DNA of 64,000 nt. Source: Flavobacteriaceae bacterium. GTDB taxonomy: Bacteria > Bacteroidota > Bacteroidia > Flavobacteriales > Flavobacteriaceae. Below, piece after piece: positions 1,221 to 5,690 of the stretch (positions are counted from its first letter, which is position 1; every line of letters starts with the position of its first letter). A model generated the notes under the pieces. The model was given only the letters and a program-made list of their open reading frames with translations, was not told the DNA's origin and did no database searches. The DNA is taken from contig CANGFO010000001.1 in NCBI GenBank assembly GCA_947453195.1, positions 1-64,000 on the forward strand, read 5' to 3'. Position numbers and translations under genes: made by a program.

Positions 1221-2426
1221 GTGAATTTTCCGCTGTACATAGCCAAAAGGTACCTTTTTAGCAAAAGCAAAAATAATGCAATCAACATTATTACCCGAAT
1301 TGCTTCGGGGGGGATTATCATTGGTGCCATGGCCTTGTTTGTAGTGCTATCGGTTTTTAGCGGATTACGCGTTTTTAGTTTGTCGTTTTCCAACGATTTT
1401 GATCCCGATTTAAAGGTAATCCCAAAAACCGGAAAGTCATTCGTGCTTACTCCATATCAAGAACAAAAATTACAAAAATATGCGGGAGTAGCTTCTTACA
1501 GCAAAATAATAGAAGAGCGCGTGCTCTTTTCATTTGACGATAAACAACAAGTAGCCTATATTAAAGGGGTAGATTCTAATTATGTTAAAGTCAACAAAGC
1601 TTCACAAAAATTATTTAACGGACAATGGCTAAGGCCAAACACCTATCAAGTAGTAATTGGCTATGGCATTTCTGAGAAACTTTCCCTTGGTTTATTCGAC
1701 ATGAATAATGTTTTGGAAGTGATGGCTCCCAAACCAGGAAAAGGTGATTTTTCATCATTAAATCCCGAAGATTCTTTTAGCAAATTAGCCTTGGTTCCTG
1801 TTGGAATTTATGCCATAAGTGAAGAACTCGATTCCAAATATGTCTTTGCCGATTTGGGCTTGGCGCAAGAATTATTATTATACCGCCCAAATCAAATTTC
1901 AGGAATTGAAATAAGAACAAAACCCAATGCAAACGAAGCCGAAGTAATTGAAACCGTAACTAAAATTTGCAACAATAAAGTAGCGGTAAAAACACGTGCC
2001 CAACTCAACGCGACGCTTTACAAAATGCTCAACACCGAAAATATTGCGGTGTATCTTATTTTTACTTTGGTGATTATTATAGCGCTTTTCAACTTAATTG
2101 GCGCTTTAATTATGATGGTTTTGGATAAAAAAGTTAATCTAAAAACGCTATTTAATTTGGGTGTGGAAGTGAAAGATTTGCGCAAAATTTTCCTATTGCA
2201 AGGAACGCTATTAAGCGTTTTTGGCGGATTAATTGGTTTGATTTTAGGAATTATTATTGTGGTAATTCAACAACAATTCCAACTGATTATGATTACTCCA
2301 TCGTTAGCTTATCCGGTGGAATTTAGCTTTCAAAATGTAGCCATAGTATTTGCTACTATCGTTTCCCTTGGATTTATTGCAAGCTTAATTGCAAGTAGTC
2401 GAGTGACTAAAAAGTTATTGGATTAG
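1221..2426 (+). CDS. LolE/FtsX-type ABC transporter permease
   Basis: This 401-residue inner-membrane protein has the MacB/FtsX layout: an N-terminal cytoplasmic segment (IAKRYLFSKSKNNAINIITR), a first membrane helix (about residues 35-55), a large periplasmic domain (about 60-270) and three C-terminal helices with conserved glycines (GGLIGLILGIIIVV). Family members such as LolC/LolE extract outer-membrane lipoproteins together with a LolD ATPase. No ATPase gene is adjacent, so the substrate is inferred. It starts with GTG immediately after the rbfA stop codon. A run of seven G residues near 1307-1313 lies inside the coding sequence. Confidence 0.85.
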   Translation: MNFPLYIAKRYLFSKSKNNAINIITRIASGGIIIGAMALFVVLSVFSGLRVFSLSFSNDFDPDLKVIPKTGKSFVLTPYQEQKLQKYAGVASYSKIIEERVLFSFDDKQQVAYIKGVDSNYVKVNKASQKLFNGQWLRPNTYQVVIGYGISEKLSLGLFDMNNVLEVMAPKPGKGDFSSLNPEDSFSKLALVPVGIYAISEELDSKYVFADLGLAQELLLYRPNQISGIEIRTKPNANEAEVIETVTKICNNKVAVKTRAQLNATLYKMLNTENIAVYLIFTLVIIIALFNLIGALIMMVLDKKVNLKTLFNLGVEVKDLRKIFLLQGTLLSVFGGLIGLILGIIIVVIQQQFQLIMITPSLAYPVEFSFQNVAIVFATIVSLGFIASLIASSRVTKKLLD

Positions 2427-2647: not shown

Positions 2648-3640
2648 TTAATAGATAGGCAAATCCGAATAGATCTCCTGAATTTCATTTAATGCTTGAA
2701 ACAATTGCTCGGGATCTTCTAGGGTAACTAGTTTCAATCGGAATTCTTTAAAATTGGGAATTCCTTTGAAATAATTGGTATAGTGGCGGCGCATTTCTAC
2801 AATTCCGAGGCGTTCCCCTTTCCAGTCCATAGACCAAGTTAAGTGATTTCTTGCAGCCTCAACACGGTCTATAATTGTTGGTTTTGCTAGATGTTCTCCT
2901 GTAGCAAAATAGTGCTTAATTTCGTTAAAAATCCAAGGATAACCAATAGCTGCACGACCAATCATCATGCCGTCTAGTCCGTATTTGTTTTTATATTCTA
3001 AAGCTTTTTCGGGAGAATCGATATCGCCATTCCCAAAAATTGGCATGGTAATTCTAGGGTTATTTTTGATGCGTTGGATGTGACTCCAATCGGAATGCCC
3101 TTTATACATTTGGGCGCGCGTTCTTGCATGCACCGTTAAGGCTTGCACACCAATATCTTGCAAACGCTCGGCAACCTCATCAATATTAATGGAATTTTCA
3201 TCCCAACCCAAACGGGTTTTTACCGTTACCGGAAGATTGGTTCCTTTAATAACCGATTTGGTTAAACGCACCATCAAATCAACATCTTTCAAAACACCGG
3301 CTCCGGCTCCTTTACAAACTACTTTTTTTACGGGACAACCAAAATTAATGTCTACCAAGTCGGGCTGCACGGCATCTACAATTCGAGCAGATAGTTCCAT
3401 TGCTTCTTCATCACCACCAAATATTTGGATTCCAACCGGACGCTCGTAATCGAAAATATCTAATTTTTGTTTGCTTTTTACGGCATCACGAATCAAGCCT
3501 TCACTCGAAATAAATTCGGAATACATTAAATCGGCACCATGTAATTTACACAATCTACGAAATGGCGGATCGCTCACATCTTCCATTGGAGCGAGTAGCA
3601 AAGGGAAATCGGGTAAAATGATGTTGCCAATTTTGGGCAT
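2648..3640 (-). CDS. dusB: tRNA-dihydrouridine synthase B
   Basis: This FMN-dependent TIM-barrel enzyme reduces uridine to dihydrouridine in the D arm of tRNAs using NADPH. The 330-residue product shows the N-terminal LAPMEDVSDPPFRRLC flavin-binding strand, DINFGCPVKKVVCKGAGAG with the catalytic Cys, TVKTRLGWDEN, VHARTRAQMYKG and GNGDIDSPEKALE. The ORF track extends 15 codons upstream, but those codons overlap a TACTTTTG promoter box, so the internal Met (MPKIGNI) at 3640 is preferred. It is divergent from lepA. It could be another Dus subfamily member, but the length and motifs fit DusB best. Confidence 0.92.
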   Translation of the reverse strand: MPKIGNIILPDFPLLLAPMEDVSDPPFRRLCKLHGADLMYSEFISSEGLIRDAVKSKQKLDIFDYERPVGIQIFGGDEEAMELSARIVDAVQPDLVDINFGCPVKKVVCKGAGAGVLKDVDLMVRLTKSVIKGTNLPVTVKTRLGWDENSINIDEVAERLQDIGVQALTVHARTRAQMYKGHSDWSHIQRIKNNPRITMPIFGNGDIDSPEKALEYKNKYGLDGMMIGRAAIGYPWIFNEIKHYFATGEHLAKPTIIDRVEAARNHLTWSMDWKGERLGIVEMRRHYTNYFKGIPNFKEFRLKLVTLEDPEQLFQALNEIQEIYSDLPIY

Positions 3641-3657
3641 GGATATTGAATTTTTGG

Positions 3658-3685
3658 CAAAAGTACAAAATTTTGTGTGTTTCAA
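3658..3685 (-). promoter_or_regulatory. promoter of dusB
   Basis: On the minus strand TACTTTTG (plus 3658-3665) lies 17 bases from an upstream TTG (plus 3683-3685). The predicted transcription start falls roughly 10-15 bases before the dusB Met at 3640, which supports the shorter dusB reading frame. Confidence 0.55.
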
Positions 3686-3700: not shown

Positions 3701-3737
3701 TTTGAGTCATATAAATCAAATCTTTGCTTTATATTTG
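3701..3737 (+). promoter_or_regulatory. candidate promoter of the lepA leader
   Basis: TATATTTG at 3730-3737 is a full -7 box, with TTTG at 3701-3704; the 25-base spacer is slightly long. No other -7 box is seen between here and the lepA ATG at 3894. Transcription from here would give a leader of about 150 bases carrying the structured element. Confidence 0.45.
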
Positions 3738-3767
3738 CAGATTAAATCCTTACTTATTAGGGTTTGC

Positions 3768-3835
3768 GTTAGGGATTGAAGCGGCATCCTTTTGTGCAGC
3801 ATTAGCGGAACAAAAGATACAGCGGAAAGCCTGAC
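3768..3835 (+). ncRNA. structured RNA-like element, copy 1, in the lepA leader
   Basis: An outer stem GTTAGG/CCTGAC encloses an internal loop (GATTGAAGCGGC on the left, ACAGCGGAAAG on the right), an AT/AT pair with a bulged C, and a terminal hairpin CTTTTGT/ACAAAAG. The same architecture with a different hairpin sequence occurs at 38824-38902. I recognise the GAAGCGGCATCCTTTT...AAAAGATA pattern as recurring in flavobacterial intergenic regions. It may correspond to a catalogued flavobacterial RNA motif (Flavo-1 is a candidate name), which I cannot verify here. Whether it acts as a leader regulator, an independent small RNA or a DNA repeat is open. Confidence 0.6.
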
Positions 3836-3893
3836 CAACAATGAAACGATAGTGGAGTTGTGGTAACGCCCAAAAAATTGACAAAATTCAAGC

Positions 3894-5690
3894 ATGAAAA
3901 ATATTAGAAATTTTTGCATTATTGCACATATTGATCACGGAAAAAGTACGCTTGCCGACCGACTTCTTGGGGCAACCCAAACGGTTACGGCCCGTGAAGA
4001 AAAAGCGCAGTTGCTGGATAACATGGACTTGGAGCGCGAGCGTGGAATTACCATTAAGAGTCACGCCATTCAAATGGAGTACAAATACAAAGGCGAAGAT
4101 TATATCTTGAACCTTATTGACACTCCGGGGCATGTGGATTTTTCGTATGAAGTTTCCCGATCTATTGCGGCTTGCGAAGGTGCGCTACTTATTGTGGATG
4201 CGGCTCAAAGTATTCAGGCGCAAACAATTTCTAACTTGTATTTGGCTTTAGAAAACGACTTGGAGATTATTCCGGTGTTGAATAAAGTGGATTTGCCAAG
4301 TTCGAATCCGGAGGAAGTAAGTGACGATATTATTGATTTATTGGGTTGCAAACTAGAAGAAATCATTCACGCATCGGGTAAAACCGGATTTGGCGTAGAA
4401 AATATATTGGCTGCTATTATTGAAAAAATTCCGCCGCCAAAAGGAAATAAAGAAGAACCTTTACAAGCCTTGATTTTTGATTCACATTACAATCCGTTTC
4501 GTGGAATTGAGGTAATTTTTCGTGTGAAAAATGGCGAAATCCGTAAAGGGCAAAAAATTAAATTCATGGCAACCGGTAATGAATATTTTGCCGATGAAGT
4601 GGGAACTCTTAAATTAAACCAAGTGCCAAAAGATTGCATATCTACTGGCGATGTGGGGTATTTAATTTCGGGGATTAAAGAAGCAAAAGAGGTGAAAGTG
4701 GGTGACACGATTACCGATGCGAAAACGCCAACCACAAATATGATTACGGGATTTGAGGATGTAAAACCAATGGTTTTTGCCGGAATTTATCCTGTGGACA
4801 CCGAAGATTTTGAAGACTTGCGTTCGTCAATGGAGAAACTGCAATTAAATGATGCTTCGTTAGTATTTACGGCAGAGAGTTCGGCGGCATTAGGATTTGG
4901 TTTCCGTTGTGGATTCTTAGGAATGTTGCACATGGAAATCATTCAGGAGCGCTTGGAGCGTGAATTTGATATGACCGTTATTACTACGGTTCCTAACGTT
5001 TCGTATTTGGCTTACACCAAAAAAGATCCGGATACTTCGTTTATAATAAACAACCCTTCCGACTTGCCAGAGCCATCGCGTTTGGACCGTGTGGAAGAAC
5101 CATATATTAAAGCAACAATCATCACAAAGGCTGATTTTGTTGGGAATGTCATGAGTTTGTGTATTGAAAAACGCGGACTAATTACCAACCAAACCTATTT
5201 AACTACCGAAAGAGTAGAGTTGAATTTTGATATGCCTTTGGCCGAAATTGTATTTGATTTTTACGACCGATTGAAAACGGTTTCCAAAGGATATGCTTCG
5301 TTTGACTATTCACCAATTGGGATGCGTACTTCTAAATTAGTGAAACTGGATGTGCTTTTAAACGGACAAACCGTAGATGCACTTTCGGCATTAATTCACG
5401 AGGATAATGCGTATCATATTGGGAAAAAAATGACCGAAAAATTACGCGAGTTAATTCCGAGACAGCAATTTGACATTCCGATTCAGGCTGCTATTGGAGC
5501 TAAAATCATTGCGCGTGAAACCATAAAAGCACTTCGTAAAGATGTTACCGCCAAATGTTATGGTGGGGATATTTCTCGTAAAAGAAAACTTTTGGAAAAA
5601 CAGAAAAAAGGGAAAAAGAGAATGCGTCAGGTTGGAAATGTAGAAATTCCACAAGAAGCATTTATGGCAGTGTTGAAGTTGAATGACTAA
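3894..5690 (+). CDS. lepA: elongation factor 4 (LepA), ribosome-associated GTPase
   Basis: LepA/EF4 is a translational GTPase that binds the ribosome and affects initiation and elongation under stress. The 598-residue length is exact for the family. The G domain begins with [15 protein letters not shown] (G1) and has [10 protein letters not shown] (G2), DTPGHVDF (G3) and NKVDLPSS (G4). EF-G-like domains follow, and the LepA-specific lysine-rich C-terminal domain contains [20 protein letters not shown]. The ATG follows a leader holding a structured element with no obvious ribosome binding site. A terminator follows directly, so the gene appears monocistronic. Confidence 0.97.

Follow-up and report, generated by a model that had tools for sequence, protein, structure and literature searches.

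The short interval between lepA, the gene for translation elongation factor 4, and its divergent dusB-like neighbour raises the question of why a segment resembling a structured RNA lies between the presumed lepA promoter and the start codon, and whether it acts on lepA. The window analysed here is the whole stretch of 64,000 nt that forms positions 1-64,000 of the forward strand of contig CANGFO010000001.1 (assembly GCA_947453195.1), from a Flavobacteriaceae bacterium (Table 1). A sequence-only reading had placed at 3768-3835 either a leader RNA that might control a translation GTPase or a repeated RNA gene, and had named Flavo-1 as a candidate family. Its landmarks, the TATATTTG box starting at 3730 and the lepA ATG, are indeed found at 3730-3737 and at 3894. 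Each of the 60 genus genomes in which the lepA start could be used has a TAnnTTTG box ahead of the gene (60/60), with the element present or absent, and this box would belong to the lepA promoter. The small hairpin behind the box shares a TTT that could extend stem P1. Several further lepA leaders, some with and some without the element, have a comparable hairpin behind the -7 box, its sequence changed and its pairing kept, at modest significance (mean z -1.1).

Table 1. Coordinates of the features of the lepA locus and of the second Flavo-1 copy in the window
Feature	Position	Strand	Basis
dusB-like tRNA-dihydrouridine synthase, divergent neighbour	2648-3685	-	TIGR00737, 331.6 bits (cut-off 293.3)
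Flavobacterial -7 box TATATTTG, presumed lepA promoter	3730-3737	+	sequence
Small hairpin AAATCCT/AGGGTTT, 5'-proximal, downstream of the -7 box and upstream of the element	3744-3765	+	folding
Complete extended (type C) element of the lepA leader, a three-way junction	3766-3871	+	R1 model, RNAalifold consensus, pair counts
P1, 5' strand GCGTT	3766-3770	+	pairs with 3865-3869; double changes at 5/5 P1 pairs (54 relatives)
P2 arm, the Flavo-1 core	3772-3832	+	RF01705 match and covariation
P3 arm, a CC...GG hairpin whose apex varies, outside RF01705	3835-3863	+	double changes at both modelled pairs (relatives)
P1, 3' strand AACGC (next letters CC, then AAA)	3865-3869	+	pairs with 3766-3770
lepA (translation elongation factor 4)	3894-5690	+	TIGR01393, 968.9 bits (cut-off 533.9)
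Second Flavo-1 copy, type A (TAGCCCAGATTG...AAAGCTGGA), without P1 and P3	38823-38902	+	RF01705, 71.8 bits; R1 only 42.5 bits

The element is a member of Flavo-1, a family for which we know of no function assigned since 2010; cmscan against Rfam matches RF01705 at 3763-3840 on the plus strand with 50.9 bits (E 4.7e-8; gathering score 42), and the suspected family was therefore the right one. Flavo-1 was predicted computationally as a probable RNA, probably not cis-regulatory (Weinberg 2010, PMC2864571), and in the transcriptome of F. psychrophilum its matches lie sense or antisense to transcribed regions, many of them in none, with no functional clue (PMC9723704). Comparison of the lepA upstream regions revealed a larger unit, type C, of which Flavo-1 is one arm. 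Flavo-1 itself is already known; the three-armed extended form is undescribed so far, and no paper on the extended junction was found in the open-access literature. A covariance model, R1, was built from the RNAalifold consensus of 15 lepA-leader copies and matches 3763-3874 with 78.8 bits (E 7.9e-16), a score that is not independent because this copy is among the 15 training sequences. Hence a structured element does exist at 3768-3835, but its true extent is larger. The outer stem GTTAGG/CCTGAC proposed for it is complementary on paper but is not a conserved pairing and competes with P1 and P2; it depends on the CCT of the window copy, a triplet that is CCC in nearly all relatives, and covariation supports GCGTT/AACGC and GGG/CCT in its place. 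The CTTTTGT/ACAAAAG hairpin (3789-3795/3810-3816) and the AT/AT pair with a bulged C are present as described.

The P2 arm is formed in order by GGG/CCT, TT/AA and GC/GC, split by two 3x3 GNA-type internal loops, then by ATC/GAT and the TTTTGT/ACAAAA hairpin. The Flavo-1 consensus stem with internal loops is recognised in it, with conserved pairs, double changes and a position 12 that covaries U-A/A-U/G-C. The type C consensus reads TTT-GCGTKA-GGG-ATWGNAGNG...(variable hairpin)...CG-AWAGCCC-GACC...(variable hairpin)...GG-N-MACGC-CC-AAA; the junction and the GNA-type internal loops stay constant, with free variation at the tips of P2 and P3. Type A copies carry CCC/GGG-type pairs at the base of P2 where type C has GGG/CCC. 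The type A copy in the window lies about 100 nt upstream of a gene, at a site apparently shared with two relatives (G013 and G003) and not with most others. Another interspersed repeat, GTCATTGCGAGG...GAAGCAATC, sits inside a Flavo-1 apical loop or stands directly before type C copies at contig ends (L014 1501-1607; L134, L135, L138). With the Rfam family the element shares the P2 core arm, including its pairing order and internal loops, and the multi-copy occurrence in Flavobacteria; the Rfam model, however, covers only P2, neither P1 nor P3. Six public genomes, Aquimarina included, hold copies matched by R1 in the lepA leader (L030-L033, L050, L061), and when these were scanned with both models RF01705 at its cut-off found only L032. 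The extended model is thus the better search model, RF01705 missing most of the lepA-leader copies tested, and RF01705 could be extended and split.

The fold is carried by comparative evidence. Without a preset structure, RNAalifold recovered the three-way junction from 15 full lepA-leader copies, double changes being present at 11 of 22 pairs. When 25 distinct lepA-leader copies are trimmed and aligned without gaps, 97% of the cells are paired versus 88% after shuffling, and 29 cells are double-changed versus 12; sliding the partners by 1-3 columns lowers pairing to 25-60%. Across the phylum, 54 copies show double changes at 21/22 pairs (212 cells versus 57 shuffled; score 0.491 versus 0.163) in an alignment that was fitted to R1 and is so biased towards it, and distant copies swap whole pairs (GCATG/CATGC and GCGAT/ATCGC in P1, GCG/CGC in P2). 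Some of the double changes at lepA may be older than the insertion there and come from dispersed lineages. Non-Watson-Crick cells read on the sense strand are G-U rather than A-C (about 10 versus 2 in lepA copies, 11 versus 1 in dispersed ones), and the sense RNA folds more stably than the antisense in 60/61 dispersed and 21/26 lepA copies, with mean folding z of -2.0 (lepA leaders) and -1.9 for sense and -1.3 and -0.9 for antisense. The window lepA copy folded as a single sequence is no better than its shuffles (z -0.37), and its folding energy was rejected as proof; with the lepA-leader mean at -2.0 and strong covariation, the above-chance evidence for the fold is comparative. Such comparison shows that the lepA-sense strand is the one that folds; it does not separate RNA from single-stranded DNA of that strand.

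The same element is scattered widely, as the sequence-only reading had stated for flavobacterial intergenic DNA. RF01705 occurs at 22 places in the source genome, on both strands and 21 of them above the gathering score, and in 58/61 genomes of the genus, where copies per genome range from 0 to more than 60, the upper end being a minimum. The strict type C pattern is found in 28/61 genomes and its reversed control in none; R1 matches 31/198 Bacteroidota genomes, type A also being caught at lower scores. Copies at unrelated sites share 90-98% identity and their flanks only near 50%, as is typical of a mobile, MITE-like repeat. Tandem flanking genes, called by a simple longest-ORF rule, are mostly antisense to type C (18 versus 4, p = 0.004, lepA and an RND gene left out) and to types A/B (21 versus 8), and a stop codon is often found 5-14 nt from the 3' end of the element. 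In antisense type A copies this distance is uniformly about 8-13 nt from the neighbour's stop codon (L001, L006, L103, L113, L117, L118 and others). One Flavo-1 copy of the source genome (contig 18, L364, 1911-1973) is close to a SAM and a SAM-II riboswitch, which lie about 150 nt apart on opposite strands at 2066-2170 (-) and 2322-2381 (+). Type C copies also stand beside rRNA operons (L365-L370, L379, L390, L395, L399, L400; upstream in G022, G036, G010) and point outward, sense behind 5S and antisense upstream of the operon; the operon 3' trailer was considered as a second conserved leader-like site and was not taken as evidence of function, the copies in the loci read lying beyond the terminator.

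These properties suggest a non-autonomous repeat that is probably mobile, mobility as a process being deduced from the distribution of copies. It resembles MITEs in being small and non-autonomous, with many near-identical copies and complementary ends (TTTGCGTK...MACGCCCAAA), but differs from them in its conserved internal loops and covarying stems, and no parent transposon was found. Nor was an autonomous, transposase-bearing version found: for 20 of 20 extra 5' halves checked a full, normal 3' half is close by and no gene is enclosed, for which reason a version with a gene inside the loop was rejected. Neither a target duplication nor a clean recent empty site was found, the closest species having about 83% DNA identity. 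Integron attC sites, suggested by the GCGTTAGGG/TAACGCCC ends, were discarded without a dedicated search; the GTT core is not kept, GCGTGA/TCACGC being a commoner end form than the one that keeps it, and copies are single and unarrayed.

The element is present in 27/60 Flavobacterium lepA leaders, in sense in 27/27, downstream of the presumed promoter and inside the predicted 5' UTR. Its start typically follows that of the TAnnTTTG box by 24-41 nt, and 20-94 nt separate its end from the ATG; the leader location given by the sequence-only reading is borne out. One of these copies (G019) is partly decayed, and remnants persist in some other leaders (G017; a 3' half in G035). An intact copy is missing from 33/60 lepA leaders, and the element is hence dispensable. 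The median distance from box to ATG is 164 nt with the element versus 97 nt without it, as expected for an insertion into the 5' UTR. Among the 14 genomes that allowed comparison with both lepA orthologues and own-genome copies, 13 lepA copies are nearer to another species' lepA copy than to the sampled copies of their own genome, so that they are inherited in place, and re-insertion or gene conversion was rejected as their origin. The leader sequence around the element is largely diverged while the element is intact. As a rough control, the second window copy appears conserved at its site in about 2/18 genus relatives and the lepA copy in 8 of the same 18. R1 has no match ahead of lepA among the remaining 74 loci of the public set. 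The lepA site is not unique, since other sites also hold copies across species: in four genomes (L156, L158, L413, L420) what we take to be the same RND pump-like gene (protein MQEGISGKIA...) is preceded by a type C copy in sense, with 16-17 nt between the end of the copy and the ATG, and further copies are kept between species in sense at presumably metH-like genes and in antisense 3' of a presumed aspartate aminotransferase-like gene, names that rest on the N-termini and not on a family search.

The retention at lepA bears on the reading that the element is purely selfish or neutral mobile DNA, whose fold would be needed as single-stranded DNA for transposition and whose lepA copy would be a passenger without effect. 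High copy number, both orientations with antisense preferred, and near-identity at unrelated sites agree with it, and the strand evidence is compatible with single-stranded DNA because G-T wobbles are tolerated in DNA too. Against it stand the intact, sense-only retention at lepA in 27 species within a largely diverged leader, the purine-rich GNA loops, which favour RNA-type stability, and the lack of an adjoining RAYT, so that we consider this reading unlikely, though deserving of serious weight. The sequence-only reading had itself named a pattern adverse to a leader role, consisting of lepA loci without the element and copies in both orientations with decayed stems; many such loci and both orientations are seen, but the decayed stems are not.

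That a dedicated lepA cis-regulatory leader RNA, binding a protein or ligand in the manner of ribosomal-protein leaders, was the source of the dispersed copies is decidedly improbable. The fixed place and orientation behind the promoter, in Aquimarina as in the 27 Flavobacterium leaders, and the conserved internal loops would suit it, but the same fold stands beside many unrelated genes, mostly antisense and in both orientations, which speaks against a consistent association with one gene or function and leaves a lepA-specific control RNA unsupported. Moreover, over half of the lepA leaders are without the element, and its 3' end is too far upstream for the start to be masked directly. Ribosomal-protein leader RNAs are likewise structured 5'-UTRs (a predicted one here) of translation genes, but the present element is not gene-specific and is missing from over half of the orthologous leaders; PMC7247131 names no lepA leader.

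An independent small RNA gene, akin to the repeated RNA gene that the sequence-only reading had offered as its alternative, agrees with the Rfam type of Flavo-1 ('Gene; sRNA') and with its listing in PMC2864571, but is very unlikely, given that the leader copies are in line with and just behind the lepA promoter, that a -7 box closely precedes only a few of the dispersed copies and that such genes do not typically occur in dozens of divergent copies per genome. REP sequences and REPtrons are similarly short, intergenic, structured, oriented, abundant and often behind stop codons, but are simple hairpins and not three-way junctions; mobilisation as a REP-type element by a RAYT (Y1_Tnp) transposase is hardly credible, for although RAYT-type genes occur in 40/61 genus genomes, the source genome (a draft of 94.7% completeness) has no RAYT and no PF01797 match at E <= 0.001, 30 RAYT loci have almost no Flavo-1 or type C nearby, and Flavo-1 copy number does not track RAYT presence.

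Comparison among copies establishes the structure, which strand folds, the dispersal and the vertical retention at lepA, and leads us to prefer, with a probability of about 0.6, a non-autonomous, probably mobile structured Flavo-1 element of which one copy has become fixed as a structure of the lepA 5' UTR. Copies would have spread among intergenic sites, where they are tolerated mostly antisense to the neighbouring genes, and the lepA copy would go back to one old insertion into the leader, passed on in sense ever since. Judged from its position, the element would lie in the transcribed lepA mRNA, 15-30 nt in from the 5' end, and would fold ahead of the ribosome-binding region, leaving the start codon uncovered. 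The folded 5'-UTR module would most likely tune the stability of the lepA mRNA or its translation initiation, possibly through a bound protein with the fixed GNA loops as its recognition site. That lepA is really regulated in this way is nevertheless judged doubtful, albeit far from negligible.

Only tentatively, and with somewhat greater doubt, may the element be regarded as a phylum-wide class of mobile three-way-junction RNA in Bacteroidota that was repeatedly captured as selected sense 5'-UTR regulatory or stabilising modules, at lepA, the RND efflux pump-like gene and the metH-like genes. The extended fold, together with the dispersal and the in-place inheritance at lepA, makes the function of Flavo-1 a testable question, and raises those of how structured elements disperse through a major bacterial phylum and whether such an element turns into the regulator of a translation factor.
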